DNA of 64,000 bases from a virus. A model generated the notes under the pieces. That model was not told the DNA's origin and did not search any database. It saw only the letters and a list, made by a program, of their open reading frames with translations. The position numbers were made by a program, and so were the translations under genes. Where the stretch lies: positions 89,712 to 153,711 of IMG/VR virus record IMGVR_UViG_3300046318_000491; one strand, given 5' to 3'. The stretch's first letter is position 1. Each line of letters starts with the position of its first letter. This document shows positions 41,713-55,390 of this stretch, piece after piece.

Positions 41713-41729
41713 CAGAAAAAATAAATACC
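41713..41729 (-). repeat. 17-bp early repeat, copy 1 (orphan)
   Basis: GGTATTTATTTTTTCTG on the minus strand. Unlike the other 14 copies, no promoter or gene follows on the minus strand. Confidence 0.85.
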
Positions 41730-41884
41730 TACACCACCCGACCAAATCTCTGACGACATCAAACATCTACACGACTAGCAAGGCTATGCTCATCATTTCC
41801 ACAAGAACTGGGAACAATGCCCATGCTCTCTCTGCTCTGCTCACATACGCCCGCCTAAGCCCGCTACGCTTATGCTCTTATTTA

Positions 41885-41905
41885 TTCAATGAATAGGGGG
41901 TTGAA
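41885..41905 (-). other. Hairpin with C-rich loop in gene-less region
   Basis: Minus strand TTCAA / TTGAA, 11-nt loop CCCCCTATTCA. An alternative pairing TATTCA/TGAATA competes with it. Weak, but the C-run in a loop recalls the 44.4 and 46.6 kb elements. Confidence 0.35.
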
Positions 41906-42040
41906 CTGCTATGACTGACCAGCCTGAACTCTCTAGGACTACCCAACGGCAAGCACATACGAGCCAGCAAAGCCCGTGTTAGTCCACGCACGCCCGTGTA
42001 GTCCTAACTCCTCTACAACGCCCACACAAGGCTTACGGCA

Positions 42041-42080
42041 GGCAAAAGAAAACCCCCACCAGCGAACTGGCAGGGGCTTT
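42041..42080 (-). terminator. Terminator of the last early unit
   Basis: Minus strand GCCCCTGCCAG-TTCG-CTGGTGGGGG followed by TTTTCTTTT, right after the 42092 stop. It ends early-region transcription before the gene-less gap. Confidence 0.85.
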
Positions 42081-42091
42081 CGTTTGAACTG

Positions 42092-42253
42092 TTAGAAGGT
42101 GCGGAAGGTGAAGGTGCGACCGTCTGTCATTAGAGACTTAGTTGCCTCGATGATTTCAATGGCACGCTTGACTGAGTTAGCCTCATAGGTTGGCTGTGAA
42201 GATAGGGTTCCGTCTGCTTCGTAAACGGTGATTTCGATTCCAGTGAAACGCAT
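42092..42253 (-). CDS. Small hypothetical protein
   Basis: 53 aa from ATG at 42253, with AGAAGGA nine bases upstream. It reads MRFTGIEITVYEADGTL, a beta hairpin, then VKRAIEIIEATKSLM, a helix. This strand-strand-helix plan also appears in the 43160-43330 product, and both may belong to one small actinophage family. Own promoter, repeat and terminator. Confidence 0.7.
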   Translation of the reverse strand: MRFTGIEITVYEADGTLSSQPTYEANSVKRAIEIIEATKSLMTDGRTFTFRTF

Positions 42254-42306
42254 TTTGTTTTTCCTTCTGTAGCCCTCCACCCCCTTGGCTTCCTGACTAC
42301 ATAAGT

Positions 42307-42336
42307 AGTCTATCACACCAATACCAAAAAACGCAA
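42307..42336 (-). promoter_or_regulatory. Early promoter (42253 gene)
   Basis: TTGCGT, 18 bp, TAGACT on the minus strand, 38 bp downstream of a 17-bp repeat copy. Confidence 0.75.
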
Positions 42337-42374
42337 ATCAAATCCCGTGCCTCACCCCCGTGTCTGACTTTCGA

Positions 42375-42391
42375 CAGAAAAAATAAATACC
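42375..42391 (-). repeat. 17-bp early repeat, copy 2
   Basis: Exact GGTATTTATTTTTTCTG on the minus strand, between the upstream unit's terminator and the promoter at 42307. Confidence 0.95.
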
Positions 42392-42421
42392 CCTCGGCGA
42401 GCGCGAAATCCGAACGGCAAA

Positions 42422-42450
42422 AGAAAAAACCCCCGCCGAAGCGAGGGTCT
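42422..42450 (-). terminator. Early-unit terminator
   Basis: Minus strand CCCTCGC-TTCG-GCGGGGG then TTTTTTCTTTT, after the small membrane protein gene. Confidence 0.85.
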
Positions 42451-42463
42451 TTCAGAAATCTAT

Positions 42464-42634
42464 TTAGGAATGGTCTAACTTCCAACCAAGCCAAGTGAAG
42501 CCAACGGCGAGCGCAAACAATAGAAACTCCACAATGGCGGGCGCACCGCCTACGGCATAGCCGAACAGCCAGACAAATCCCAAGCCTACGGCAAGCCCAT
42601 AGGCGACCACAGCGAACTCTCGGTAGGCTTTCAC
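42464..42634 (-). CDS. Small two-helix membrane protein
   Basis: 56 aa from a GTG that overlaps the upstream TGA (GTGA). Two hydrophobic helices: about 7-26 (FAVVAYGLAVGLGFVWLFGY) and about 34-52. Third gene of a three-gene unit. Could be holin-like by size; no other support. Confidence 0.6.
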   Translation of the reverse strand: MKAYREFAVVAYGLAVGLGFVWLFGYAVGGAPAIVEFLLFALAVGFTWLGWKLDHS

Positions 42635-42753
42635 TTCTCCGACCGCCTACGAGCCAGATACGCCTCATGCTGGGCATGGCGGAAAGTGTAGAACGCTTTA
42701 TCGCTCAACCACGCCCAAAGGCGATAGACAGCCGTGTGATAAGTCTTACGCAT
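42631..42753 (-). CDS. Small basic protein
   Basis: 40 aa, rich in Arg, His, Tyr and Trp (TAVYRLWAWLSDKAFYTFRH). Its ATG overlaps the upstream TAA (TAATG) and its stop overlaps the next GTG, so the three genes are translated as a chain. Not recognised. Confidence 0.55.
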   Translation of the reverse strand: MRKTYHTAVYRLWAWLSDKAFYTFRHAQHEAYLARRRSEK

Positions 42754-42947
42754 TATGAACCTGCCTTTGCTTGACGCTTTGCCTGACCTGCCAACTTACG
42801 CTTTACATAGCGACTGACTTCGACCTCAACTGGCTTAGGCTTACGGCACTCGCCACAAACCTGCTTTGATGAGTAGTAGTAGCCAACCTCTGTGTGAAAC
42901 TGTTCACCGCAGTTGTAGCAGTGAAGCCAAACCTTGTTGCCTGACAT
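42753..42947 (-). CDS. Zinc-ribbon protein
   Basis: 64 aa. CYNC near the N-terminus and CGEC about 22 residues later form a two-knuckle zinc ribbon, followed by a very basic tail (VKRKLAGQAKRQAKAGS) likely to contact nucleic acid. AAGGGG lies five bases before the ATG. First gene of its unit. Function unknown; an RNA polymerase- or ribosome-binding modulator is one option. Confidence 0.7.
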   Translation of the reverse strand: MSGNKVWLHCYNCGEQFHTEVGYYYSSKQVCGECRKPKPVEVEVSRYVKRKLAGQAKRQAKAGS

Positions 42948-42986
42948 CTGAACCCCTTACCCCAATCCCTCTGACTGGATACTCCC

Positions 42987-43016
42987 AGTCTACTCTAACC
43001 CTCTGACAAAACGCAA
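42987..43016 (-). promoter_or_regulatory. Early promoter (42947 operon)
   Basis: TTGCGT, 18 bp, TAGACT on the minus strand; repeat copy 46 bp upstream of the -35. Confidence 0.75.
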
Positions 43017-43062
43017 CACCTCTCCGCGTGTGTCGCCGTGCCCCCGCCCGTGCCAACGCTGA

Positions 43063-43079
43063 CAGAAAAAATAAATACC
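43063..43079 (-). repeat. 17-bp early repeat, copy 3
   Basis: Exact GGTATTTATTTTTTCTG on the minus strand. Confidence 0.95.
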
Positions 43080-43114
43080 GCACGCCAGCGAAAAAATCGC
43101 CAGCCAGCGAGCAA

Positions 43115-43146
43115 AGAAAAAACCCCCTGCCTCTCGGCAAGGGGTT
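43115..43146 (-). terminator. Early-unit terminator
   Basis: Minus strand CCCCTTGCC-GAGA-GGCAGGGGG then TTTTTTC, just after the 43160 stop. Confidence 0.85.
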
Positions 43147-43159
43147 AGTTCGTTTACTT

Positions 43160-43330
43160 CTATCGGTGACCTACAACGCTAAAGGTCATAGTATTACCGC
43201 TACCTGCGATAAGTTCCTCGGTACGTTCGATAATCTCCTGTGCCTTGTCCCACGAGTGGCACTCGTAGACTGGCTCAATGTAGTTTCCGTCTGGCTCTGT
43301 AATCTTGATTACAAGTGAGTTGATAGTCAT
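43160..43330 (-). CDS. Small hypothetical protein
   Basis: 56 aa: MTINSLVIKITEPDGNYIEP, then WDKAQEIIERTEELIAG, then a final strand. Same strand-strand-helix-strand plan as the 42092-42253 product. It follows the 107-aa gene by 12 bp in one unit. Not recognised. Confidence 0.65.
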   Translation of the reverse strand: MTINSLVIKITEPDGNYIEPVYECHSWDKAQEIIERTEELIAGSGNTMTFSVVGHR

Positions 43331-43342
43331 TCGTGCGCCCCC

Positions 43343-43666
43343 TTACAAGGTCTTTAGGTAGTCGTATTCGGTGGTCTTTAGAGTTGCCTCGTAAGCCTCT
43401 GGGAATAGCGACTTCATTAGTTCACGGTCAAAGTGTGTGTTAGCACCGTTCACAACACGAACGGCAACTACGCCCTCAACAACGCCAGCCTTTGCCTCGC
43501 CTAGAGCCTCACGCAAGATAGCCTCTGCCTTTGACTTTAGGGCCTTAGCCTTTGCCTCTGCCGCTTTTGCTTTGTTGAAAGTGGTGAGAGCCTTGATAGC
43601 CTTTGCTGAAAGTTCTACGCCCTCTACGGTCTTGTTGCTCTTTACTGCTACAACTGTGTTAGCCAT
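43343..43666 (-). CDS. Helical protein, paralogue-like to the 49179 gene
   Basis: 107 aa from ATG at 43666 after AAGGGG. A Lys/Ala-rich coiled-coil (FNKAKAAEAKAKALKSKAEAI) is followed by LREALGEAKAGVVEGVVAV and a conserved-looking FDRELMKSLFPEAYEATLK end. This plan (helix, ALG.A..G...G, F....L....PE.Y) is common in small phage proteins near recombination or YqaJ-like nuclease genes. The 49179-49559 product begins MANT and ends alike. Function unproven. Confidence 0.65.
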   Translation of the reverse strand: MANTVVAVKSNKTVEGVELSAKAIKALTTFNKAKAAEAKAKALKSKAEAILREALGEAKAGVVEGVVAVRVVNGANTHFDRELMKSLFPEAYEATLKTTEYDYLKTL

Positions 43667-43712
43667 TTGGCTACCCCTTATCTTTTCTACCAGCCTTGTT
43701 GCTGATGTATTC

Positions 43713-43741
43713 AGCATACAGGCATTACTTCCGAAAGTCAA
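43713..43741 (-). promoter_or_regulatory. Early promoter (43666 operon)
   Basis: TTGACT, 17 bp, TATGCT on the minus strand; repeat copy 49 bp upstream. Confidence 0.75.
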
Positions 43742-43790
43742 ATCCAAATCCACAAATCTTTTCCCGTGTCGTCGCCCGCCGGGTTGTCGG

Positions 43791-43807
43791 CAGAAAAAAT
43801 AAATACC
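43791..43807 (-). repeat. 17-bp early repeat, copy 4
   Basis: Exact GGTATTTATTTTTTCTG on the minus strand. Confidence 0.95.
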
Positions 43808-43840
43808 CATACCCGGTAGCAAAATAAATCCGAACGGCAA

Positions 43841-43871
43841 AGAAAAAAGGCTGAGCATTTCTGCCCAGCCT
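43841..43871 (-). terminator. Early-unit terminator
   Basis: Minus strand AGGCTG / CAGCCT stem then TTTTTTCTTT, 16 bp after the DUF3846-like gene. Confidence 0.8.
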
Positions 43872-43886
43872 CTCGTCTTGAAACTT

Positions 43887-44234
43887 CTACGCTAACGCCC
43901 TCAAGTTCGCACCCGCACTCGCAAGGTTGCGAATCATTCGAGCGTTGTCCTCGGTGAGTCCTAGAGTGTCGCCGTCTTCGTCTGTCCCACCCGTAAACAC
44001 TACGCTGCCCTGAATGTCGTAGTTCCCACCAACGGTAGCAAAGAAAACAGTTCCTATTGCGTTTGGTTCTGGTTCGTTCCTCAAGAGAAACTCCTCGTTC
44101 ACCCACATAATCAAGTTCTCGTTGATGTCGATAGCCTCGATCCAGCCGTCTACGCCTGCTTGTAGTTCCTCTAGAGAAACTCCAGTCTCCGTGACATTGT
44201 AGTTTGCGTCTACTACTAGAGCCAACTTTTCCAT
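43887..44234 (-). CDS. DUF3846-like protein
   Basis: 115 aa from ATG at 44234 after GGGG. Features of DUF3846: VDGWIEAIDI near residue 30, LIMWVNEEFLL near 43, then PNAIGTVFFATVGGNYDIQGSVVFTGG and LTEDN. This family occurs in many actinophages and plasmids and has no established activity. Single-gene unit with own promoter and terminator. Confidence 0.8.
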   Translation of the reverse strand: MEKLALVVDANYNVTETGVSLEELQAGVDGWIEAIDINENLIMWVNEEFLLRNEPEPNAIGTVFFATVGGNYDIQGSVVFTGGTDEDGDTLGLTEDNARMIRNLASAGANLRALA

Positions 44235-44274
44235 TTGAATCCCCAATCCATAAACCACTCTGGCTTATGTTCTA

Positions 44275-44303
44275 AGTTTACCAATACCCACTGACATTTT
44301 CAA
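44275..44303 (-). promoter_or_regulatory. Early promoter (DUF3846 gene)
   Basis: TTGAAA, 17 bp, TAAACT with GG before the -10; repeat copy 47 bp upstream. Confidence 0.8.
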
Positions 44304-44350
44304 CTTCTCACCGTGCGTGTTTCTTCGTTCGTTCGTTGTTGCGGTATACG

Positions 44351-44367
44351 CAGAAAAAATAAATACC
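44351..44367 (-). repeat. 17-bp early repeat, copy 5
   Basis: Exact GGTATTTATTTTTTCTG on the minus strand. Confidence 0.95.
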
Positions 44368-44401
44368 CACCGCACGCACCAAAATTATTCGAGCGAGCAA
44401 C

Positions 44402-44432
44402 AAAAAACCCGATAGCACAATCACTATCGGGT
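44402..44432 (-). terminator. Early-unit terminator
   Basis: Minus strand CCCGATAG-TGATTGTG-CTATCGGG then TTTTTTG. It ends the 3' UTR that carries the C-rich-loop hairpins. Confidence 0.85.
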
Positions 44433-44445
44433 CTCTCGGAGAAAG

Positions 44446-44501
44446 AAACGAGGGGGCGTTTCCGTTATCTCTGTCGCTACCAAAGGGGGATAAGGTAGCG
44501 A
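44446..44501 (-). ncRNA. Tandem C-rich-loop hairpins (6C RNA-like), 3' UTR
   Basis: Minus-strand RNA between the zinc-ribbon stop (44509) and the terminator. Hairpin A (44501-44474): 8-bp stem TCGCTACC / GGTAGCGA with 12-nt loop TTATCCCCCTTT. Hairpin B (44461-44446): AAACG / CGTTT with loop CCCCCT. Two adjacent hairpins exposing C-runs followed by a terminator is the plan of the actinobacterial 6C RNA. The loop of A can pair with AAAGGGG ribosome sites used by this phage. Confidence 0.6.
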
Positions 44502-44508
44502 GTTCTAT

Positions 44509-44736
44509 TTAGTTGTTGGGGTCGTAGTCGGCGTAGTAGTCGTCTCGCAAGTCTTCCTTGCTAGGCACTTCGACTTCTAGGACTGAACGGCACTTAGGAC
44601 ATTCGGCTGTCACAGTAGTTCCGTAGTCGTCTGTCTGACCGTCTAGTTCCATTTCTTCGTCGCAGTGTGAGCAGAAAAACCAAGCGGTGTAATCGGTAGA
44701 GTCAATCCCTGACCCTTTCATTGAAAACCCAGGCAT
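44509..44736 (-). CDS. Zinc-ribbon protein
   Basis: 75 aa with CSHC and CPKC knuckles about 24 residues apart, and an acidic, Tyr-rich C-terminus (RDDYYADYDPNN). Its ATG overlaps the TAA of the 50-aa zinc protein upstream (TAATG). Its mRNA carries the C-rich-loop hairpins in the 3' UTR. Function unknown. Confidence 0.7.
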   Translation of the reverse strand: MPGFSMKGSGIDSTDYTAWFFCSHCDEEMELDGQTDDYGTTVTAECPKCRSVLEVEVPSKEDLRDDYYADYDPNN

Positions 44737-44888
44737 TAGTGGTTCATCTCAAATCCTGCTGAATACTCGACGCCCGCTGGAGTTGGGTCGTAGCAATCCT
44801 GACATACGCCACCTGCTACATAGTATTCGGCAACCATTGGGTTGCTCTCTGTAATCTTGCTCTCGCAGTTTGGACACTTCTCTGACAT
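44736..44888 (-). CDS. Tiny zinc-ribbon protein
   Basis: 50 aa: CPNC near the N-terminus and CQDC about 23 residues later, with an acidic rest. A ribosome site (AAGGGG) precedes the ATG at 44888. First gene of a two-gene unit of zinc ribbons. Confidence 0.65.
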   Translation of the reverse strand: MSEKCPNCESKITESNPMVAEYYVAGGVCQDCYDPTPAGVEYSAGFEMNH

Positions 44889-44931
44889 CTGAAACCCCTT
44901 GTCTGCCAACCCCTTGTTGGCTACAAGAACT

Positions 44932-44960
44932 ACATTACAGGATACCTACGACAAACGCAA
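44932..44960 (-). promoter_or_regulatory. Early promoter (44888 operon)
   Basis: TTGCGT, 17 bp, TAATGT on the minus strand; repeat copy 50 bp upstream. Confidence 0.75.
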
Positions 44961-45010
44961 ATCGAAACGCCGAAAACTTTTCCGTGTCGCCAACCCCGCG
45001 AGCGCGTTCA

Positions 45011-45027
45011 CAGAAAAAATAAATACC
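45011..45027 (-). repeat. 17-bp early repeat, copy 6
   Basis: Exact GGTATTTATTTTTTCTG on the minus strand. Confidence 0.95.
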
Positions 45028-45060
45028 CCTCGGCAGACGAGAAACTCGGCGAGCAAGGCA

Positions 45061-45090
45061 AAAAGAAAACCCCCGCATTTCTGCGAGGGT
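45061..45090 (-). terminator. Early-unit terminator
   Basis: Minus strand CCCTCGCA-GAAA-TGCGGGGG then TTTTCTTTT. Confidence 0.85.
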
Positions 45091-45119
45091 TGTCTTGAAA
45101 CTGTATCTGATTTGGCGTA

Positions 45120-45344
45120 TTACTCGCCTACGATTCTGTCTATCAAGCGTGAGACCTGCGGTGAGAATGTAAGCATTAGGGCAATGATTACGCCTAGCCC
45201 CAAGCCATTCTGGAAAACTTCTTCACTTGAAACGGTAGGCTCTGCCCCTGCGATTACCAACCATAGGTAGGCAAGCGTGTAAACCCCTGCGACTACTGGA
45301 ATAGAGATAATCCCTACAACTGCTCTGCGAATGTAAAACTTCAT
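45120..45344 (-). CDS. Small two-pass membrane protein
   Basis: 74 aa: short basic N-terminus, hydrophobic helix at about 9-32 (VGIISIPVVAGVYTLAYLWL), an acidic loop, a second helix at about 46-60 and a charged end. Own promoter but no 17-bp repeat upstream. Function unknown. Confidence 0.65.
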   Translation of the reverse strand: MKFYIRRAVVGIISIPVVAGVYTLAYLWLVIAGAEPTVSSEEVFQNGLGLGVIIALMLTFSPQVSRLIDRIVGE

Positions 45345-45384
45345 TTTGAATCCCCTTTTCTAGTTAGGCTTTCTAACTACTTAC

Positions 45385-45413
45385 AGTTTACCCTACAACT
45401 TTTTGAATGTCAA
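45385..45413 (-). promoter_or_regulatory. Internal early promoter (45344 gene)
   Basis: TTGACA, 17 bp, TAAACT on the minus strand, starting 10 bp after the upstream gene's stop. There is no terminator and no 17-bp repeat here, unlike most other units. Confidence 0.8.
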
Positions 45414-45422
45414 GCATTTCTT

Positions 45423-45587
45423 TTAGTAGTTCTCATTGACATACTCAACCAGTTCATCTTGCGACTTACCAGCACGAATCAAGTCCTTGACTTCTTCGTC
45501 TTCGGCAAGCAACTCAAACATAACCGTAGTCTCACCTGACAAGACAATCAACTTCTCGAACAACGATAGTTCTCTATTTAGAATCAT
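45423..45587 (-). CDS. Small hypothetical acidic protein
   Basis: 54 aa from ATG at 45587 after AAAGGGG. MILNRELSLFEKLIVLSGETTVMFELL then an acidic helix and NENY end. All helix by appearance. No terminator follows, so its transcript may run into the membrane-protein gene. Confidence 0.6.
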   Translation of the reverse strand: MILNRELSLFEKLIVLSGETTVMFELLAEDEEVKDLIRAGKSQDELVEYVNENY

Positions 45588-45614
45588 TTGAATCCCCTTT
45601 GTTTGGATAGTCAT

Positions 45615-45643
45615 ACTTTATCACCAAGCACCGACATTTTCAA
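45615..45643 (-). promoter_or_regulatory. Early promoter (45587 gene)
   Basis: TTGAAA, 17 bp, TAAAGT on the minus strand; repeat copy 39 bp upstream. Confidence 0.8.
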
Positions 45644-45682
45644 CTTCCAACGAACCCGTGTCATCTCGCTGTCGCCGGCAGT

Positions 45683-45699
45683 CAGAAAAAATAAATACC
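45683..45699 (-). repeat. 17-bp early repeat, copy 7
   Basis: Exact GGTATTTATTTTTTCTG on the minus strand. Confidence 0.95.
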
Positions 45700-45732
45700 C
45701 TCGGATTTCGAGAAAAAGATTTCGCGCAAACG

Positions 45733-45765
45733 CAAAAAAAAACGCCTGCCTTTCGGCAAGCGCTT
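45733..45765 (-). terminator. Early-unit terminator
   Basis: Minus strand GCGCTTGCC-GAAA-GGCAGGCG then nine T residues. Confidence 0.85.
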
Positions 45766-45774
45766 CTTTTTAGT

Positions 45775-45903
45775 TCAACTACATAACTGTCCAGCAAACC
45801 AACTATCAAACTCGCTCTCGCAGTCCTCGCATAAAGGGTGAACGGTTGTTATGTCTTCGACTTCTATCGCCGTGTCACATTGGTAACACTCTGTCTTAGC
45901 CAT
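45775..45903 (-). CDS. Tiny zinc-ribbon protein
   Basis: 42 aa: CYQC and CEDC knuckles about 19 residues apart, acidic. The ATG overlaps the upstream TAA (TAATG). Third gene of a three-gene unit. Confidence 0.6.
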   Translation of the reverse strand: MAKTECYQCDTAIEVEDITTVHPLCEDCESEFDSWFAGQLCS

Positions 45904-46148
45904 TAGTCAATACCCCAACAATCGGCACACTTCGGAACAGTAAACCCTGAACCATTTGCCTTGTTGTTCTCGTAGTGGAGGTGGAGGCTCTCGTCTAGCA
46001 CAATCGTCTTATCACATTGACGGCACGACACTTCGTAAGTGTTCTCAGTCATCATTCGTGAACGGTTATACATCTTCGAGATTTCGTAGTTGATTTCGTC
46101 ATCTGACATTTCGACGGCAGACTTACTCAAGTTCGTAGTCCGTGTCAT
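45903..46148 (-). CDS. Zinc-ribbon protein
   Basis: 81 aa from ATG at 46148 (a TTG one codon earlier is possible). An N-terminal helical segment (MSDDEINYEISKMYNRS) precedes CRQC and CADC knuckles. It overlaps the end of the 93-aa gene by 26 bp. Its C-terminal ribbon resembles the 42-aa protein downstream, so the pair may be duplicates. Confidence 0.62.
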   Translation of the reverse strand: MTRTTNLSKSAVEMSDDEINYEISKMYNRSRMMTENTYEVSCRQCDKTIVLDESLHLHYENNKANGSGFTVPKCADCWGID

Positions 46149-46404
46149 CAAGCCAAGTTTCTAGACGGTGTCCGTCGATTACTGCCCACGCTGGAGCGGC
46201 AGTCAATCCCTTGTAACCCACGCCATCTGGCATACTAATCAAACGATTCGGCTCGCCATTGTTGTAATGCTCAATCGCTTCAACGCAAACTGGAACCATT
46301 GACAACGGCACAGGTGGAAAAAAGTTGCCACGCAAGTGCCAAGTGATTTGTTCTTCTAGTGGAATACCAGTTTCGGCGATTCCTTCGGCATACATTCTAC
46401 CCAT
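46123..46404 (-). CDS. Conserved actinophage hypothetical protein
   Basis: 93 aa from ATG at 46404 after AGGGG. The segment TWHLRGNFFPPVPLSMVPVC, then AIEHYNNGE and GLTAAPAWAVIDGHRLETWLDD matches a small protein family I know from actinophages that has no assigned function. First gene of its unit. Confidence 0.7.
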   Translation of the reverse strand: MGRMYAEGIAETGIPLEEQITWHLRGNFFPPVPLSMVPVCVEAIEHYNNGEPNRLISMPDGVGYKGLTAAPAWAVIDGHRLETWLDDTDYELE

Positions 46405-46449
46405 TTACTTCCCCTAATCTTTCGGTGTAGCCCTATTGCTACATCTGTA

Positions 46450-46478
46450 ATCTTACTCTACTTCCAACGACTTCGCAA
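46450..46478 (-). promoter_or_regulatory. Early promoter (46404 operon)
   Basis: TTGCGA, 17 bp, TAAGAT on the minus strand; repeat copy 29 bp upstream. Confidence 0.75.
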
Positions 46479-46507
46479 CTCTCGTTCGTTGTGTGTCCCG
46501 CAGCTCG

Positions 46508-46524
46508 CAGAAAAAATAAATACC
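46508..46524 (-). repeat. 17-bp early repeat, copy 8
   Basis: Exact GGTATTTATTTTTTCTG on the minus strand. Confidence 0.95.
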
Positions 46525-46561
46525 GCCTACACAAACAAAAATCGAAAAGCAAAACGGTAAA

Positions 46562-46598
46562 AGAAAAAGTGGTATCAGACGGGGGGTCCAATACCACT
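46562..46598 (-). terminator. Terminator with C6 loop
   Basis: Minus strand GTGGTAT / ATACCAC outer stem with GGAC / GTCT inside and a C-run at the tip, then TTTTTCTTTT. The terminator itself exposes CCCCCC. Confidence 0.85.
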
Positions 46599-46605
46599 TC
46601 TCTTT

Positions 46606-46667
46606 GAGGCGAGCGAAAGGGGGATAACTCTCGCCTCCATCAGTTAGGGAGGTTACTCGACCTAACT
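46606..46667 (-). ncRNA. Tandem C-rich-loop hairpins (6C RNA-like), 3' UTR
   Basis: Minus-strand RNA after the 46678 stop. Hairpin A (46667-46642): AGTTAGG / CCTAACT with loop TCGAGTAACCTC, placing ACCTCC at the stem edge. Hairpin B (46637-46606): 8-bp GAGGCGAG / CTCGCCTC with loop AGTTATCCCCCTTTCG, which contains the same 12-mer TTATCCCCCTTT as the element at 44474. The terminator with a C6 tip follows. Stem sequences differ between loci but the loop is identical, as expected for a functional loop. Confidence 0.6.
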
Positions 46668-46677
46668 AACTTCTACT

Positions 46678-47013
46678 CTACACTAAAGTTTTTGAAAACT
46701 CGTCGTGTTCAACATCTTGATACGTGTAAACGCCTGTGTCTGCGTTTACGAATACAGTTGGAGCATCTGCCCACTCCGAGCCAGTCACCTTGCCTGTGTA
46801 AATCCCGAATGACAGTTCGCCATCATAGTTGCCAATCTTTGCGAACTCGTAGAAAATCTGTGCGGTGAGATAACTAGGGTCGCCAATACGCCCTGAACGC
46901 TCTAGCACGCTACGAACAGCAAGAATGTTGTCATCGCCTGACCAATGTCCATAAAATACAACTGGAATCTCGAACTGCTCTGACGAGACTTCGATAAATG
47001 CTCTGTTTCCCAT
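46678..47013 (-). CDS. Hypothetical protein
   Basis: 111 aa from ATG at 47013 after AAGGGG. MGNRAFIEVSSEQFEIPVVFYGHWSGDD, later YLTAQIFYEFAKIG and FGIYTGKVTG, resembles a small phage family with a beta core and no known function. Single-gene unit whose 3' UTR carries three hairpins with C-rich loops. Confidence 0.65.
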   Translation of the reverse strand: MGNRAFIEVSSEQFEIPVVFYGHWSGDDNILAVRSVLERSGRIGDPSYLTAQIFYEFAKIGNYDGELSFGIYTGKVTGSEWADAPTVFVNADTGVYTYQDVEHDEFSKTLV

Positions 47014-47052
47014 TTGAATCCCCTTATCTGTAACCAATCTGGCTACATACAT

Positions 47053-47081
47053 AGATTACCATGCTCATGCGAGAAAGTCAA
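47053..47081 (-). promoter_or_regulatory. Early promoter (47013 gene)
   Basis: TTGACT, 17 bp, TAATCT with GG before the -10; repeat copy 49 bp upstream. Confidence 0.8.
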
Positions 47082-47130
47082 ACCTCGCTCACTTCAAACG
47101 AATCGTGTGTTCGCACGTGCGGCAGCGCGG

Positions 47131-47147
47131 CAGAAAAAATAAATACC
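47131..47147 (-). repeat. 17-bp early repeat, copy 9
   Basis: Exact GGTATTTATTTTTTCTG on the minus strand. Confidence 0.95.
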
Positions 47148-47180
47148 ACCGGCAACGACGCAAATTGTTTCGCAAGGCAT

Positions 47181-47210
47181 AAAAAAACTCCCCGCCTTTC
47201 AGCGAGGAGT
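47181..47210 (-). terminator. Early-unit terminator
   Basis: Minus strand ACTCCTCGC-TGAAAG-GCGGGGAGT then TTTTTTTAT after the SSB gene. Confidence 0.85.
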
Positions 47211-47226
47211 TCTTTCGTTTGAAGTT

Positions 47227-47619
47227 CTATACTAACTCTGGCTCTGGCTCAAAGTCACGAACCAAAACATTTCGAGTAAATACGCTCGAACCCCAGTTCA
47301 AGTCGTGTCCTACTGCCTCTGCCTCAAGTTCAACGGAAGTTCCTGAACGCTCACCGTTATCCCAATCACGCACACGCAATACGCCCTGAACCATAATGCG
47401 GTCGCCCTTGTTCACCGAACCAGAAACATTTATAGCAAGTTGCTTGAAAGCGGTAATCGTATACCAGTTGGTCTCGCCATCTACCCACTTGTCTAATGCT
47501 CTGTCGAATCGGCGGTTGCTACTTGCTAGTCGGAATGATGTAATCGCCAAGCCCTCGGCTGTGACGATGTGTCGTGGTGTAGTTGCTACTAGTCCAGCAA
47601 CGCTAATGGTCTCTGCCAT
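47227..47619 (-). CDS. ssb: Single-stranded DNA-binding protein
   Basis: 130 aa with the SSB OB-fold order: ISVAGLVATTPRH, ITSFRLASSNRRFDRALDKWVDGETNWYTITAFKQLAINVSGSV split across strands, KGDRIMVQGVLRVRDWDN, then VELEAEAVGHDL. The W-Y-T-I-T-A-F-K-Q-L-A stretch is typical. Binds ssDNA during phage replication and recombination. The C-terminus ends EPEPELV, acidic but lacking the DDDLPF-type tip, so partner recruitment may differ from host SSB. Single-gene unit. Confidence 0.9.
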   Translation of the reverse strand: MAETISVAGLVATTPRHIVTAEGLAITSFRLASSNRRFDRALDKWVDGETNWYTITAFKQLAINVSGSVNKGDRIMVQGVLRVRDWDNGERSGTSVELEAEAVGHDLNWGSSVFTRNVLVRDFEPEPELV

Positions 47620-47660
47620 TTTTCCCTTTCAGTAGATTACTGAATTTCATCTACATAAGA

Positions 47661-47689
47661 ATCTTACCAGACTGCTACGACAAATACAA
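47661..47689 (-). promoter_or_regulatory. Early promoter (ssb)
   Basis: TTGTAT, 17 bp, TAAGAT with GG before the -10; repeat copy 41 bp upstream. Confidence 0.8.
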
Positions 47690-47730
47690 CTTACAAACAA
47701 CTCCGCGTCTGCTCGCTCGACGGAAGTTGT

Positions 47731-47747: not shown

Positions 47748-47774
47748 CTCTTGCGGTAAAAAAATAATCCCCAG

Positions 47775-49559: not shown

Positions 49560-49603
49560 TTGATTTCCTCCTGTGTTTGTTATCAGTGGGTCTAACAAAA
49601 TCT

Positions 49604-49633
49604 ACTTTACCAGAGTCCTCCGACATTTTACAA
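49604..49633 (-). promoter_or_regulatory. Early promoter (49559 gene)
   Basis: TTGTAA, 18 bp, TAAAGT with GG before the -10; repeat copy 48 bp upstream. Confidence 0.8.
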
Positions 49634-49681
49634 ATCCAAGTGCGTGTTTCGTGGATTATTTTTTTCGGGGTCGGAAAGTTC

Positions 49682-49698
49682 CAGAAAAAATAAATACC
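49682..49698 (-). repeat. 17-bp early repeat, copy 13
   Basis: Exact GGTATTTATTTTTTCTG on the minus strand. Confidence 0.95.
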
Positions 49699-49708
49699 CT
49701 CCGTCGAA

Positions 49709-49732
49709 AGAAAAACGAGGCTTACGCCTCGC
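49709..49732 (-). terminator. Terminator overlapping a stop codon
   Basis: Minus strand GCGAGGC-GTAA-GCCTCGT then TTTTC. The 5' stem arm encodes the last residues of the Api92-like gene and its TAA (49724-49722) falls in the loop. Confidence 0.75.
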
Positions 49733-50579
49733 TCTCCTCGTCCAATGTCGGGAACAACTTTTGACCCGTGTTCTCGTCCACGACCCAGAATGAATCTGAA
49801 TCCTCTGCGGTTAGTTCGTCCAACTTGTCTTGGGCAACTTCCCACGCACCCTCCGCTGAAGTTGCTCGCACAATGTATCGGCGTTCAACGACAACAACGA
49901 AGTCCGTTTCCTGACGAGGGCAGTCCTCGTAAAAGTCTTCCTCGTCTCCGTTTTCGCAAGCCCAGCAGGCTCGACCCAATGCGTCATAGTCGGCGTGGCT
50001 CTGCGGAATGTCCCACTCCCTCGTCATGATTAGCGACTTTGTAGGCACGCCGTTCTCGTCTACATCATCTCCGTCTGACGAAGTGAACTCCGCACCCCAG
50101 CCCTGTTCCTCCTCGCAAGAAAAGTCGAACGAAAGTTCTGGGTGCTGTCGAACGATAGCCGTGAATACCTGCTCTGGGATTCCCCATGCCGTTTCAAACG
50201 AGTAGCCCAAGTAAGCCGCTTTATCGTCCGTCATGTCCGTCAAGTTCACGCTACCAGCGTCCCACTTCACGCCCCAGTTGCTGACATTCCAGTCATACCA
50301 GCCGTCTGATTCGTGTTTCATAGCAATAGCCATGCGGTCTTCCATGCTCATCTCGGCGTATCCGTCTGGCTTGTAATCGCTCGCCCCGAAGTAGCGTGGC
50401 TTGTTCTCTGGTTCAATGAAGTTCCAGAACGATAGCGGTGAGGCGTTCTCGTCCTTGTATTCAAGCACGCCGTCCTCGCTGATTCCGCTAGGGGCAATCT
50501 TGCTCGCCTTATCACGAAACGCAATCAGGTCTTTAGCCGTGCCGTTTACATTCATGTTGTTGTAGACCCAGTTAGGCAT
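49722..50579 (-). CDS. Api92-like / ferredoxin-fold phage protein
   Basis: 285 aa from ATG at 50579, chosen because MPNWVYNNMNVNG is the usual N-terminus of the Api92-like family (ferredoxin-like fold). Middle: SPLSFWNFIEPE, YDWNVSNWGVKWDAG, and YSFETAWGIPEQVF, typical of the family. An acidic region with CWACENG and a C-terminal VVVVERRYIVRATSAEGAWEVA domain are added, so the protein is longer than simple members. Function of the family is unknown. Confidence 0.8.
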   Translation of the reverse strand: MPNWVYNNMNVNGTAKDLIAFRDKASKIAPSGISEDGVLEYKDENASPLSFWNFIEPENKPRYFGASDYKPDGYAEMSMEDRMAIAMKHESDGWYDWNVSNWGVKWDAGSVNLTDMTDDKAAYLGYSFETAWGIPEQVFTAIVRQHPELSFDFSCEEEQGWGAEFTSSDGDDVDENGVPTKSLIMTREWDIPQSHADYDALGRACWACENGDEEDFYEDCPRQETDFVVVVERRYIVRATSAEGAWEVAQDKLDELTAEDSDSFWVVDENTGQKLFPTLDEESEA

Positions 50580-50581
50580 TT

Positions 50582-50875
50582 CTACCACGCACCCTTGTCT
50601 ACATCAAGCCTGTGAGCGTCAATCATTTCATTCACAGTTTCACCTGCGAACATCTTGGCTACCGCCAATCGTGTTGCGAGTTCTGGCTCGTTCAACTTCT
50701 GTGCCAACTTCTCTGCCAACGCCAGCACCTTATACATGGTTGGGTCGCAGTAGCCATCTCGGCAGTAGTCCTCTACCAGCACGCCAATCGTGGCAAGTGC
50801 CATGCCAGCAATCTCGTGGTCGTCTAGTTCCATGTGGTCTAGTTCGTCCATGTTTCCTGAACAGTTATTACACAT
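50582..50875 (-). CDS. Hypothetical protein with N-terminal CNNC
   Basis: 97 aa from ATG at 50875 after AAAGGGG. MCNNCSGNMDELDHMELDDHEIAG is Cys- and acid-rich; the rest is helical (YKVLALAEKLAQKLNEPELATRLAVAK). The next gene starts right at its stop. Not recognised. Confidence 0.65.
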   Translation of the reverse strand: MCNNCSGNMDELDHMELDDHEIAGMALATIGVLVEDYCRDGYCDPTMYKVLALAEKLAQKLNEPELATRLAVAKMFAGETVNEMIDAHRLDVDKGAW

Positions 50876-50906
50876 TTGAAATCCCCTTTCTTGGAATCGT
50901 ATTAGA

Positions 50907-50935
50907 ACTTTACCATAGACTTCCGACAAATACAA
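50907..50935 (-). promoter_or_regulatory. Early promoter (50875 operon)
   Basis: TTGTAT, 17 bp, TAAAGT with GG before the -10; repeat copy 48 bp upstream. Confidence 0.82.
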
Positions 50936-50983
50936 ACACCATTCGTTAGAAGTTTCTCTTTCTTTTTTGCGACTCGGAACTGA

Positions 50984-51000
50984 CAGAAAAAATAAATACC
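50984..51000 (-). repeat. 17-bp early repeat, copy 14
   Basis: Exact GGTATTTATTTTTTCTG on the minus strand. Confidence 0.95.
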
Positions 51001-51095
51001 ACCCCGCTGAAAAAAAATCCCGCTGAACTTTCCACGAGACCAATCCGTGTTCGTTGGAAGTGGAATGGCATTTTGTAATCGCACGAGCAAACAAA

Positions 51096-51131
51096 AAACC
51101 CCCAACAATCCGTGAGGACTATCGGGGGCTA
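51096..51131 (-). terminator. Terminator after the VWA gene
   Basis: Minus strand CCCCCGAT ... GTTGGGGG then TTTTTTG, with extra pairing inside. Confidence 0.8.
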
Positions 51132-51138
51132 AGTGGTG

Positions 51139-51187
51139 TCCACTAGCGAACCAACGAAAGGACGAACAAACGCAATCCGCTAGTGGA
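51139..51187 (-). other. Long 3' UTR hairpin after the VWA gene
   Basis: Perfect 10-bp stem TCCACTAGCG / CGCTAGTGGA around a 29-nt loop, between the VWA stop and its terminator. Likely an mRNA 3'-end stabiliser or a regulatory structure. Confidence 0.55.
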
Positions 51188-51199
51188 ACTCTGCTTCCC

Positions 51200-52954
51200 C
51201 TAAACGCTCGCTTTCATGAGTGCGTCCGTTGCGCTCTTGCCAATCGCAAACGCAATCTCCTTGGTCTCCAGTCCGTCTAAGACCACGCCGTTTCCACCGA
51301 CCAACTGCGCACCTAAACCACGCCCACATTCCTTTGGCGTAATCCAGAGAACTGCCACGCCGTTTTCCTTACACAAGCGAGCCGTCTCTTTCGCTCGGTT
51401 AGTTTCCTCGCCTGTGTAATGTCCGTCTGAAACGACAACCAACAAACGCACGCCGTTTCCGTTGGTCAAGTCAAGTGCGCCGTCAAGTGCTTTGAACGCC
51501 TTGCCAAAAAGTTCCGTTCCGTCTGGTGCGGTATAGACCGAAACCTTTTCCAATCGCTGACCGACCTTGAGAGTCGGGAATACGCCAGAGCCATAGTAGA
51601 CCATAGCGGTCTTGGCTTGAACTCGGCGACCTGCTTCGCCAAGAACCCAAGCCGTAGTTGCCATGCTCTCCATAGCCGAACCCATAGAACCGCTAATGTC
51701 CACCATGATTCCGATAGAGAGTGTCGGGTCGTCTGTGTGCTTGCGTGTCTTGTGCTTCCATGCTGGATTCAAGTCTCGCACGCCCTTGGCTTTCAACGCT
51801 TCGTTCTGAACAAGCACTCGTGCCTTTAGGCGACCAACTGGCTCGTGAGACTTGATTACAGTTTCCGAGCGTTCACGATACTTTGCCTTTTCCAACATCT
51901 GACCAATCTTGACTGCGCTTGCTCGCTCGTGTCCAGTTGGGTTGCGCTGTTCTTGTAGGCGTGAACGAGAACCAGAACCCTCTGACCCAGTTGCCTTGGC
52001 AAAAACTTCTTTGGCTTCCTGCTTCGATTCGCTCTGACGCTTCGATTCGCTCTGACGCTCTTTGGCTTCCTGCTTCCAATCCTCTTGGGTCTGCTGGTCT
52101 GACAAGTCCATAGACGCTGACATGGCTGTCTCACCTGCGTCTGATTCCATAGCGTCCATGAGTTCCTTTAGAAACTCTGGCACGCCACCCTGACCTGATT
52201 CGCCCTCTGGGTCTGCCTCTTTCAAAAGGTCGTTCCACTTTTCGGCGAGCGCAATCCCACGAGCAATCTCGCTCGTGTGTAGCGACTGGAACTCCACCCA
52301 GATAGAACGCAAGTTGTTGAACAAGTCCATGCCAATCACTTCGACAACCTTGTCGAAAGTTGATTTCACATCTGACAACTTGACAACTCCTGCGTCCACT
52401 CGTGCCAACGCTAATGCTGATACATGAGCGCACGCACGAATCTCTGTAAGATTCGCTATGGCTTCCTCGTCTACTCCCTGTAATGCGAGACCAAGTGCTG
52501 ACGAGCGCAAGAACAACTGATTCTCTGGCATTTGAATAACGCCCTTGCGTTCGATTCGTGATTCGTCTAGCAACTGAAAAGTGTTGAATACCTTTTCGTC
52601 CATAGACTTTAGGGCTGTCTTATCCCAGAGTGAGTAGCGAGCGTGAAGTGCCTCGTGATAAATCACGCCAGTTGGCTCTGCCCAATCGTATTGGGTTGTT
52701 CGCTCTGTAAAGTCGCCAACCATTTTCGGGGTCGTTGCTTTACCAAACGCCTGTGGAATGTTGATTTCGATTTCGGCTGTGTCTGTAAGGAAACAAGCAA
52801 GTGCCACGCCCATACCTGCGTCCTCACCTGCGTAAACTGCCAAGTCGTTTCGACCTGACCATGCGTTTACAACTGTGCCAATCTCTGCGCAAGTCTTTAG
52901 CCACTCTGGGGTAGTTGCGCTGGTGCGTGTTGCTAGTCGTGAAAAGTGAGACAT
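51200..52954 (-). CDS. VWA-domain protein with HExxH motif (CobT-like partner)
   Basis: 584 aa. The N-terminal region holds HEALHARYS at residues 100-108, an HExxH zinc motif. Residues about 250-345 are low-complexity and charged with a QSESKRQSESKQ repeat. The C-terminal 180 residues form a von Willebrand A domain with MIDAS DISGS (near 420) and later VVVSDGHYTGEE. VWA proteins of this kind pair with MoxR/CobS-type AAA ATPases, and such an ATPase lies 106 bp upstream in the same orientation. The pair probably remodels a protein complex; target unknown. Own promoter with an embedded inverted repeat. Confidence 0.85.
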   Translation of the reverse strand: MSHFSRLATRTSATTPEWLKTCAEIGTVVNAWSGRNDLAVYAGEDAGMGVALACFLTDTAEIEINIPQAFGKATTPKMVGDFTERTTQYDWAEPTGVIYHEALHARYSLWDKTALKSMDEKVFNTFQLLDESRIERKGVIQMPENQLFLRSSALGLALQGVDEEAIANLTEIRACAHVSALALARVDAGVVKLSDVKSTFDKVVEVIGMDLFNNLRSIWVEFQSLHTSEIARGIALAEKWNDLLKEADPEGESGQGGVPEFLKELMDAMESDAGETAMSASMDLSDQQTQEDWKQEAKERQSESKRQSESKQEAKEVFAKATGSEGSGSRSRLQEQRNPTGHERASAVKIGQMLEKAKYRERSETVIKSHEPVGRLKARVLVQNEALKAKGVRDLNPAWKHKTRKHTDDPTLSIGIMVDISGSMGSAMESMATTAWVLGEAGRRVQAKTAMVYYGSGVFPTLKVGQRLEKVSVYTAPDGTELFGKAFKALDGALDLTNGNGVRLLVVVSDGHYTGEETNRAKETARLCKENGVAVLWITPKECGRGLGAQLVGGNGVVLDGLETKEIAFAIGKSATDALMKASV

Positions 52955-52996
52955 GATTTCGTCCTTTCGTTGTCTCTTGCTTTGTTGCTAAATCCA

Positions 52997-53025
52997 ACCT
53001 TACCAGAGTTGGTAGGGGAACGCAA
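52997..53025 (-). promoter_or_regulatory. Promoter of the VWA gene
   Basis: TTGCGT, 17 bp, TAAGGT with GG before the -10, on the minus strand. The -35 lies inside the loop of the 53011-53040 inverted repeat. Confidence 0.75.
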
Positions 53026-53040
53026 GTTCATTCCCCTACC
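53011..53040 (-). promoter_or_regulatory. 10-bp inverted repeat around the VWA -35 box
   Basis: GGTAGGGGAA and TTCCCCTACC separated by 10 bp. No T-run follows, so an operator is more likely than a terminator; as RNA it could also attenuate read-through from the AAA gene. Confidence 0.65.
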
Positions 53041-53060
53041 TTTTCTAGTAGAACGGATTA

Positions 53061-54089
53061 CTAGATTTTCGCTGGCATTACTGCTTCGCCGAAAACTCGT
53101 GTGAATACATCTGCCACGACTGACCTGTCAATCTCTGGTGCGCTGGCAAGTAGATTCTGAATCGCCCACTTTGAACCAAACAAGTTGGTCAAGTCTCGGA
53201 ACGCAAGCAACTCTCGGAACTGTGGAGACCATGAAGTCTCACCGTTCGACTGCTTCTTGGCAAGATTCTGTGAAGCCGAAACTGCTGTCGCTGGAACGCC
53301 CAACTTCTTAGCCAATGCCCAGTCTGTTGTCATTTCAACCTGAACGCTGAATCGTGATAGCAACGCTTCTGAAAGTCGAACTCCAGGTGCGTTAGGGTTG
53401 GTCGCACCAATGACGAAAAATCCGTCCTTTGCCTTGACTGTGCCTCGCTCTGGATTCTGGGTAATGGTGATTTCCTTGCGTCCGTCCATGAGACCATAAA
53501 CGGCAGACAAGACCTTTGGGTCAATGAGACCAATCTCGTCAATCAAAAGAACCTTGCCCTCCTCTGCTGACTTGACCAATGCGCCGTCCACCCATTCAAA
53601 AGAACCACTTGGGGTCTGAACATAGCCACCAATGAAGTCTGAAAGTTCGGTGTCGCCTGAACCAAGAACTGTGTAAAGGTCGTCTGGGAACGCACCCTCA
53701 ACGCACGCTGTCTTACCAGTTCCAGGTGCGCCATAGAGTAGAACATACTGACCTGCGCCACGAGCCTTGCGTAGAACCTCAATGTCTGTGTGGTCGCCCC
53801 AAGGACGAGCGTAGTAGTCCTGACCATTTGGTCGAACATACTTCTCTGCCCCTGCTAATGCTTCCACATTCACATTCCCTCTAGTAGACTTTGGCTTCGG
53901 AGTGCCAGTTCCGATTTTAGCACGAACATTTGCTCGTGCGCTGGCTGGCATAAGTGAGTCCAAACCTGCTGGAACTGCGCTTGGCTTTTCGTGCTGAATC
54001 GCAACGCCATAAATCAGACTTGATAGGTCTGGGTATAGCGTGTCAATAGTTTCCTCTGGTGCTGTTGCTGGTGCTGTAATGGTAGTCAT
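53061..54089 (-). CDS. AAA+ ATPase, MoxR/CobS-like
   Basis: 342 aa. Walker A GAPGTGKT at 120-127, Walker B VLLIDEIGLID near 180-190, sensor-1 IGATNPN, and an Arg-finger-like LSRFSVQVEM region. The N-terminal 80 residues are a disordered-looking Lys/Thr/Pro linker. It precedes the VWA/HExxH gene, the classic MoxR-VWA pairing; ATP-driven remodelling of the partner's target is expected. It follows the 178-aa gene by 24 bp and is probably transcribed with it. Confidence 0.9.
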   Translation of the reverse strand: MTTITAPATAPEETIDTLYPDLSSLIYGVAIQHEKPSAVPAGLDSLMPASARANVRAKIGTGTPKPKSTRGNVNVEALAGAEKYVRPNGQDYYARPWGDHTDIEVLRKARGAGQYVLLYGAPGTGKTACVEGAFPDDLYTVLGSGDTELSDFIGGYVQTPSGSFEWVDGALVKSAEEGKVLLIDEIGLIDPKVLSAVYGLMDGRKEITITQNPERGTVKAKDGFFVIGATNPNAPGVRLSEALLSRFSVQVEMTTDWALAKKLGVPATAVSASQNLAKKQSNGETSWSPQFRELLAFRDLTNLFGSKWAIQNLLASAPEIDRSVVADVFTRVFGEAVMPAKI

Positions 54090-54113
54090 GATTTTTCCGT
54101 CCTTTTTCTCTGA

Positions 54114-54650
54114 CTAAACTGTGGCTGGTGCTGGAGTGATAAACAACTTCTCTGGGAATCCAAGGGCAACTCGTGTCTTTTGGATTCGGCGTAGTGCGCT
54201 CGCTGGTGCTTTGTAATCACGAACATCTGTGAAATCTACATCTGTCATTTCAAAAACGATAGGGCGATTTCCACGCAAGGTCTTTAGACCATACATCATT
54301 TGACGCTTTAGAGTTCGCTCTACCTGCTCTGCCATGTTCAACGCCTTGTCCTCTGGTGCGAGAGTAGCCATTTCCTTGTCAATGCGAATACGATTCATGC
54401 GCCACTGCTTTCGTGGAGACCACTCTGAAACTGTGCGAGAAACAATCGCCATGTCTACTGGCTCGCCCTTTTCGTTAGTTCCCTGTGGGGTAATAAGAAT
54501 CTGGGTTGTCTGGTCTCCCTTGTCATTTGGAAACTCTAGGTAGATTCCCCTGCCCATAATACGAGGCTTATTTGAAGTCTCGCCTAGTGCTACTGCTTCT
54601 GCGACTTCTGGGGCTAGTTCCCCAAAAGTTCCCAATGAATCTGGATTCAT
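54114..54650 (-). CDS. Hypothetical protein of the AAA-VWA module
   Basis: 178 aa from ATG at 54650 after AAAGGA. N-terminal helix (LGTFGELAPEVAEAVALGE), a beta part with RGIYLEFPNDKGDQTTQILITP, then WSPRKQWRMNRIRIDKEM and a basic C-terminal region. No family recognised. It heads the operon leading into the AAA ATPase, so it may be an adaptor or substrate. Confidence 0.65.
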   Translation of the reverse strand: MNPDSLGTFGELAPEVAEAVALGETSNKPRIMGRGIYLEFPNDKGDQTTQILITPQGTNEKGEPVDMAIVSRTVSEWSPRKQWRMNRIRIDKEMATLAPEDKALNMAEQVERTLKRQMMYGLKTLRGNRPIVFEMTDVDFTDVRDYKAPASALRRIQKTRVALGFPEKLFITPAPATV

Positions 54651-54695
54651 GATTCGTCCTTTCAATCTGTGTCGCTGGATTTTTCCAACAAGTTC

Positions 54696-54725
54696 AACTT
54701 ACCATAGTTCGTTGGAAGTTGTCAA
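54696..54725 (-). promoter_or_regulatory. Promoter of the 54650-AAA operon
   Basis: TTGACA, 18 bp, TAAGTT with GG before the -10. The inverted repeat TTGGAA (54712-54717) / TTCCAA (54731-54736) flanks the -35, and GGAATGAACTTG is shared with the VWA promoter. Confidence 0.8.
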
Positions 54726-54753
54726 GTTCATTCCAAACTATTTTTTGGCGTGT

Positions 54754-55287
54754 CTAAAAGTGGAAGTCCACTGGGATTAGAAACTGGTTGTCTGGGCGTG
54801 TGGCTACTCGCGTTGTGAAGTAGCGCAAGTTTCCTGTCCAGTTCTCTATGTCATAGATACCTGTGTCGCAAGTCCATTCATCATCTAGGATTTGCGCCAA
54901 CTTCTTGGTAGCCCACAAGTCCATGTTGAGACCACTTGCGTAAGGGTCATAAGAATAGGTAGTTAGGTCAATCGCCTTTGACTTGTATTCACGAATGGAA
55001 GCCATTCGTTCCTCTAGGTAGCGAGTGATTACTTCCTCTGCTCGTGCTGGGTCATCTGAATAGCGCAAGTGGTTGGGATTAGTATCTGGGGTCTTGAACT
55101 CCCCATTCTCATTCACATCACCAAAGACTGCGCCAGACCAACGTCCTGCGAAGTTTAGGGAGTCTGAGTTGCTGGCGTTATGCCAATCAGACCAGCGAGG
55201 CTCGCCATCGCTGAAGTGGCTTTCGACATTACTAAACGCTTCCTCTGGGGTCTCTGCCTCCACGAGGATAATCTGGCATACGTGCAT
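54754..55287 (-). CDS. Hypothetical protein
   Basis: 177 aa. MHVCQIILVEAETPEEAFSNV looks like a ferredoxin-fold start; then WSDWHNASNSDSLNFAGRWSG, a helical middle and WATKKLAQILDDEW ... IENWTGNLRYFTTRV near the end. Phage-type hypothetical. First gene after the right-most copy of the early repeat. Confidence 0.65.
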   Translation of the reverse strand: MHVCQIILVEAETPEEAFSNVESHFSDGEPRWSDWHNASNSDSLNFAGRWSGAVFGDVNENGEFKTPDTNPNHLRYSDDPARAEEVITRYLEERMASIREYKSKAIDLTTYSYDPYASGLNMDLWATKKLAQILDDEWTCDTGIYDIENWTGNLRYFTTRVATRPDNQFLIPVDFHF

Positions 55288-55319
55288 TTTTCGTCCTTTC
55301 AGTTATAAAACTTACTTGA

Positions 55320-55348
55320 ACTTTACCAGATACCTCTGACATTTTCAA
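55320..55348 (-). promoter_or_regulatory. Early promoter (55287 gene)
   Basis: TTGAAA, 17 bp, TAAAGT with GG before the -10; repeat copy 25 bp upstream. Confidence 0.82.
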
Positions 55349-55373
55349 ATCGCCGCGCTCGCGGTATTCGTGT

Positions 55374-55390
55374 CAGAAAAAATAAATACC
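55374..55390 (-). repeat. 17-bp early repeat, copy 15
   Basis: Exact GGTATTTATTTTTTCTG on the minus strand, starting 3 bp after the stop of the 55690 gene with no terminator between. Confidence 0.95.

Follow-up and report, generated by a model that had tools for sequence, protein, structure and literature searches.

How might a large phage switch on a long run of small genes that is divided into many separate units, each preceded by the same short sequence? The question is raised by the final 64 kb of a virus record 153,711 bp long (IMG/VR record IMGVR_UViG_3300046318_000491, positions 89,712 to 153,711), where a 17-bp element, GGTATTTATTTTTTCTG on the minus strand, recurs along an array of small gene units. 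The whole of this 64,000-nucleotide stretch is called the window below. We consider it likely that the element is an orientation-specific site for a sequence-specific activator, probably phage-encoded, which would contact RNA polymerase from upstream. To the first observation of the repeat, our analysis adds helical phasing between element and promoter, a second motif (RACACGG), and lineage-specific versions of the element in related phages.

The window holds 14 perfect copies and one with a single mismatch (at 48404), compared with an expectation of 0.15 copies from dinucleotide shuffling. A search of the whole record allowing up to 2 mismatches returned the same 15 copies and no others, and a control pattern consisting of the element read backwards had 0 matches in the full record. 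All 15 copies are on the minus strand, and all are intergenic when the likely true gene starts are used; overlaps with long open reading frames (ORFs) are artefacts of implausible upstream starts. The original prediction had listed these copies in a single orientation, outside coding sequence and the late region, and had placed 14 of them 25-50 bp upstream of a -35 box. Every coordinate proved exact on re-search, and the distance from the end of the element to the -35 box is ~26-50 bp in those 14 copies. The copies are as follows, each with its -10 box and the distance (bp) from the start of the element to that box.

55374..55390, minus strand: element copy 1; -10 at 55320-55325, distance 64
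50984..51000, minus strand: element copy 2; -10 at 50907-50912, distance 87
49682..49698, minus strand: element copy 3; -10 at 49604-49609, distance 88
49092..49108, minus strand: element copy 4; -10 at 49024-49029, distance 78
48404..48420, minus strand: element copy 5, with one mismatch; -10 at 48336-48341, distance 78
47731..47747, minus strand: element copy 6, before the SSB gene; -10 at 47661-47666, distance 80
47131..47147, minus strand: element copy 7; -10 at 47053-47058, distance 88
46508..46524, minus strand: element copy 8; -10 at 46450-46455, distance 68
45683..45699, minus strand: element copy 9; -10 at 45615-45620, distance 78
45011..45027, minus strand: element copy 10; -10 at 44932-44937, distance 89
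44351..44367, minus strand: element copy 11; -10 at 44275-44280, distance 86
43791..43807, minus strand: element copy 12; -10 at 43713-43718, distance 88
43063..43079, minus strand: element copy 13; -10 at 42987-42992, distance 86
42375..42391, minus strand: element copy 14; -10 at 42307-42312, distance 78
41713..41729, minus strand: element copy 15, at the array end, with a weak promoter candidate only (score 4); -10 candidate at 41633-41638, distance 90

The distances in this list follow a rule. Promoters were located with a motif model that contained no distance prior, and the resulting element-to-(-10) distances cluster at 56-58, 66-68, 76-78, and 86-88 bp, with the gaps between these values nearly empty. 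Over 101 sites, the phasing has a vector length R of 0.62 with a best-fitting period of 10.5 bp, and six genomes are significant singly (9e-4 for this phage alone and 5.5e-8 for the related contig G010 alone). Rotating the downstream sequence as a control gave a mean R of 0.11 and a maximum of 0.29. Because one dense peak can mimic phasing, we also removed the main peak; the remaining 47 sites retained an R of 0.61 at nearly the same phase. A model-free rule, TGTC-N12-TANNNT, yielded a Rayleigh R of 0.66 (n = 80), as opposed to 0.12 for TANNNT without that context. Control distances were hardly phased, with values of 0.17 from the element to the start codon and 0.23 from the upstream T-run to the -10 box.

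This spacing recalls class I activators such as Escherichia coli Crp, whose action depends on spacing with ~10.5-bp periodicity (PMC6301791) and whose classical sites are centred at -61.5, -71.5, -82.5, and -92.5 (PMC11894529). If transcription is assumed to start 7 nt past the -10 box, the element would be centred at about -61, -71, -82, and -92, which would fit the Crp positions. As with Crp, each promoter has a single site, upstream of a poor -35 and separated from the promoter by whole helix turns. It differs from the class I Crp site in being asymmetric and in one orientation instead of palindromic, and the start sites compared are, on our side, assumed ones.

The anatomy of the units is correspondingly regular.

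41629..55390, minus strand: array of small gene units, each with the element, RACACGG (11 of 15 units), a promoter, 1-3 small ORFs, and usually a terminator

Read in the direction of the genes, the end of the previous unit (usually a terminator) is followed by the element, RACACGG, the promoter, a ribosome-binding site, and 1-3 small ORFs. The promoters are of one type, TTTG..ATTGTC-N12-TAnnnT, and most promoters of this type are linked to the element: 12 of the 14 best matches in this whole record are so linked, as are 14/15, 27/28, and 6/6 in three other genomes. One promoter without the element (45413-45385) is among the region's best consensus matches, and the gene preceding it has no terminator. 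RACACGG often lies between element and promoter, ~20-30 bp past the element. ACACG occurs within 47 bp downstream of the element in 11 of the 15 units here (~0.03 expected per unit) and in 79 of 203 units across ten genomes, where its reverse complement occurs in 4. The element does not belong to the terminator of the previous unit, because the copy at 55374 begins 3 nt past a stop codon with no hairpin between; an Rfam search of the element likewise gave no family match.

The exact 17-mer occurs in 31 IMG/VR stretches as a single copy each, in line with chance, and no near DNA match was found in phage records. Searches of open papers returned no description of the element, most subscription journals lying outside their coverage. 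The relatives used here are metagenomic contigs, mostly incomplete, with loci taken around the ATPase of the window and around the protein encoded at 54754. In nine of these contigs, the slot that separates the end of one unit from the promoter of the following one is occupied by a lineage-specific variant of the element, present in 10-38 copies per contig, nearly all on the gene strand and with few near-misses. The search of related phages suggested with the original prediction has thus located versions of the element in this slot. The versions are GTATTTATTTTTTCT in G001, G002, and G010; GTATTCATTTTTTATC in G009; GTATCCACTTTTT in G011; GTATTCATTTTTTCA in G021; ATTTTTCATTTTT in G022 and G023; and GTTTTCACTTTTTCA in G024 (aligned by eye: RTWTYYAYTTTTT).

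Copies are near-identical within a genome, yet they differ between phages with ATPase identities of 80-89%. Orthologous genes bear the version of their own genome, as do the SSB orthologues in G009 and G010; the SSB gene is preceded by GGTATTTATTTTTTCTG here and by GTATTCATTTTTTATC in G009, while the two proteins are 81% identical. Because orthologous genes are marked in this way, the units evidently do not bring the element along with them, and all copies within a genome appear to have changed together. The simplest cause of such concerted change would be a protein that acts in trans and whose specificity shifts. Five close relatives (G003, G004, G005, G007, and G008) lack the element, and in three of these (G005, G007, and G008; SSB identity 77-81%) the SSB slot is filled by GATC- and AGCT-rich sequence. 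A repeat in the same three phages, GATCGATC, was considered as a replacement element; it is enriched and often in the slot but unphased.

The mechanism that we propose is that an activator binds the element once before each small unit of this non-virion gene array, at ~57, 67, 77, or 88 bp from a shared promoter type with a poor -35. From the same face of the DNA, the bound factor would contact RNA polymerase in the manner of class I activators, by analogy at the alpha C-terminal domain, and would thereby switch the units of the array on together, perhaps early, as the original prediction took these promoters to be. The concerted change of all element copies in related phages makes it probable that the phage itself encodes the factor. 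That prediction had named the site of a phage or host activator among its options, and both helical phasing and the replacement of the site across whole lineages now support this idea well. Phage proteins that bind upstream of several phage promoters and recruit the host RNA polymerase are familiar from phi29 (p4), P2 (Ogr), and Mu (C). The likeness would lie in the upstream site at several phage promoters; those proteins serve few promoters, whereas each genome here has 10-38 near-identical sites that stand at several helix turns, one to a small gene unit. No homologues of p4, Ogr, or C were identified in this analysis.

A more tentative extension, which we regard as possible but the less probable outcome, is that the array forms a private-key regulon, in which each lineage would own an activator matched to its 10-38 sites and, on several occasions, the complete set of sites would have been re-keyed together while the genes stayed unchanged. 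If true, a co-infecting relative would be unable to read the small-gene array of the phage, and nature would have provided a series of activator-site pairs that differ in specificity. How large phages of uncultured, probably actinobacterial, hosts control transcription has been little studied, and the element set offers a concrete, testable regulon (15 sites here and about 200 across ten genomes) and a predicted mechanism with exact spacing rules. Relatives with altered sites offer a way to find the activator and to follow the co-change of site and protein, and activator-site pairs, once identified, could serve as orthogonal gene switches in actinobacteria.

Several points weigh against the activator-site reading. 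The binding protein is so far only predicted, and no match was identified among the phage's candidate proteins; transcription starts were placed by assumption 7 nt past the -10 box; and the spacing would suit an activator and a phased repressor alike. Three phages outside the training set gave an R of 0.68 (n = 32) at a similar phase, but their sites fall mostly in the main distance peak and so speak for the preferred distance more strongly than for the periodicity. The pooled p-values come out too small, since orthologous units are not fully independent, although single-genome values are much less affected. Finally, the five relatives without the element use partly similar promoters, so evolution can dispense with the element.

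We compared five candidate proteins with the pattern of element presence, four of which are listed here.

54754..55287, minus strand: 177-aa protein, the first gene to follow an element; of the candidates compared, the one that co-occurs best with it
60118..60387, minus strand: 89-aa MerR-like helix-turn-helix (HTH) protein, candidate DNA-binding factor (HTH_17, 4.6e-5, below the curated cut-off)
48474-48770, minus strand: ClgR-like regulator (NF041677, 1.6e-21, below the curated cut-off), within the array
39893-40444, minus strand: 183-aa protein with two HTHs, one sigma-region-4-like (recognition helix LTRERVRQI) and a second that is nearly invariant

The 177-aa protein is present in 9 of 10 element-bearing records and 0 of 5 without the element, and its predicted structure is confident (pLDDT 92.7). 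It was rejected as the factor because G011 lacks its gene although it bears the element, and because the model matches no solved DNA-binding fold. The 89-aa MerR-like protein is, in our judgement, the best DNA-binding candidate, with a chance that we put well below even. Among the records searched it is confined to this clade, where it also occurs in relatives without the element. In each of the eight element-bearing phages that were found to have this protein, its HTH keeps the stretch KT[ILV]YNW. The stretch differs in G005, G007, and G008, yet it is unaltered in G003, another phage without the element. The single-sequence model of this protein was too poor to use (pLDDT 52). A precedent may be seen in BldC, a small MerR-like protein that binds AT-rich sites directionally (PMC5859096), although binding by the phage protein is only predicted and the element has no evident counterpart of the 9-bp direct repeats, AATTXXXX(C), bound by BldC.

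ClgR activates Clp protease genes in actinobacteria. The ClgR-like protein is present in 15 of 15 clade records compared, and it was rejected because its identity is not tied to the element (~60% in L042, which has no element, and 45% in L040, which has the same core element). The 183-aa protein, encoded just before the late genes and 71-78% identical across the clade, was rejected because its HTHs are nearly invariant although the elements differ. A tandem MerR protein (63176-63640) is carried by few records and does not track the element.

That no phage gene tracks the element perfectly favours a host activator, to whose versions phages of different hosts would each have adapted, and the ClgR-like, WhiB-like, and MerR-like regulators are of actinobacterial types. 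For a host site, one would expect more degeneracy within a genome and more conservation between close phages; the opposite is seen, and we consider this explanation improbable.

We give similarly little credence to an UP-like element, in which the alpha C-terminal domain of host RNA polymerase would itself bind a T/A tract at helix-phased positions without a dedicated factor. Direct binding by alpha would indeed be phased too, UP elements are likewise AT-rich tracts upstream of promoters, and GTATTTATTTTTTC of this genome fits what we take to be the distal UP consensus, NNAWWWWWTTTTTN, a fit that also counts against a dedicated activator. This much of the UP-like option in the original prediction stands. 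The fit is poorer in the relatives, whose GTATTCATTTTTT and GTATCCACTTTTT, standing at equivalent phased positions, break the consensus by 1-3 internal C residues. Changes should be tolerated by a factor that binds a tract, whereas the copies are nearly invariant over 16-17 bp and almost fixed in orientation, and in place of a degenerate A/T tract adjoining the -35 we find a near-invariant sequence ~26-50 bp upstream of it.

A site for a phage repressor, which would block either initiation or read-through, appears very improbable. The resemblance is to the stoperators bound by L5 Rep in cluster A mycobacteriophages, which are asymmetric 13-bp sites, more than 20 per genome, intergenic, mostly in one orientation, and phage-dependent in consensus (PMC6550527, PMC9283540); the element is likewise asymmetric, intergenic, single in orientation, multicopy, and lineage-differing. 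Stoperators act as repressor sites and elongation stops, and helix phasing to promoters is not reported for them (PMC6550527, PMC9283540), whereas the element is phased. A roadblock to read-through has no reason to keep helix phase with the next promoter, the element does not overlap the promoter, and no repressor of the L5 type was recognised, though L5 Rep itself was not used directly as a query.

A recombination boundary, a piece of the upstream terminator, or an opposite-strand late promoter, suggested by the position at unit borders, the T-rich tail, and a plus strand reading AATAAATA, appears highly improbable, given that orthologous cassettes bear their own genome's version and do not carry the element between genomes, that the spacing is phased to the downstream minus-strand promoter and hardly to the upstream T-run, and that AATAAATA and any conserved T4-like octamer (TATAAATA) are missing from relatives in which the slot is retained, for example G009 (AAATGAATAC) and G011 (AAGTGGATAC).

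The window also encodes terminase, portal, tail, endolysin, SSB, and MoxR-like ATPase genes, which identify the virus as a tailed phage. The array lies on the minus strand between the ATPase/VWA pair and the virion genes. Plus-strand GC skew is ~-0.09 to -0.155 across the array (42000-54000) and ~zero over the late genes, both being coded on the minus strand. By its ATPase (70% identity), the closest annotated record is Actinomycetia phage DSL-LC01, a genome itself assembled from a lake metagenome (PMC10611076). This similarity, together with two WhiB-like proteins and the ClgR-like protein, suggests that the host is probably actinobacterial. A full-length 735-aa catalase-peroxidase, KatG (36582-38789, minus strand; NCBIfam PRK15061, 1088 bits), adjoins the large terminase gene; its best cellular matches, ~56-61% identical, come from many phyla and are uninformative about the host.

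Other repeats occur in this phage and its relatives. A second dispersed repeat, ACTTCNAACGA, has 19 copies in the record in both orientations (1 for the reversed-pattern control), with minus-strand copies in the window at 62015, 57815, 56736, 55840, 55771, 54719, 51061, 50953, and 47225; it is absent in G010, G011, and G023 and frequent in most clade members. In four more distant relatives (L198, L095, L202, and L214), GGGTAAAAAT or AAAAAGTAAAAAT is present on the gene strand in 10-24 copies, which may precede a start codon, follow a stop codon, or lie in an intergenic gap; because they also sit at start and stop codons, we did not count them as the same element. Further repeats in more distant phages are TTACACGGAAAAA and TTTTCCATG, and short repeats such as ACTGGTGCAACTGG (>20 copies) in L124-L126 (record positions 40000-80000) are probably coding repeats in tail-region genes. 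In DSL-LC01 (L120) and L067, a near-identical promoter stands before each small gene, GATTCTAAAGATGTTATAATNGAATC (with a dyad around the -10) and CCTGATATAATAGTAC, respectively.

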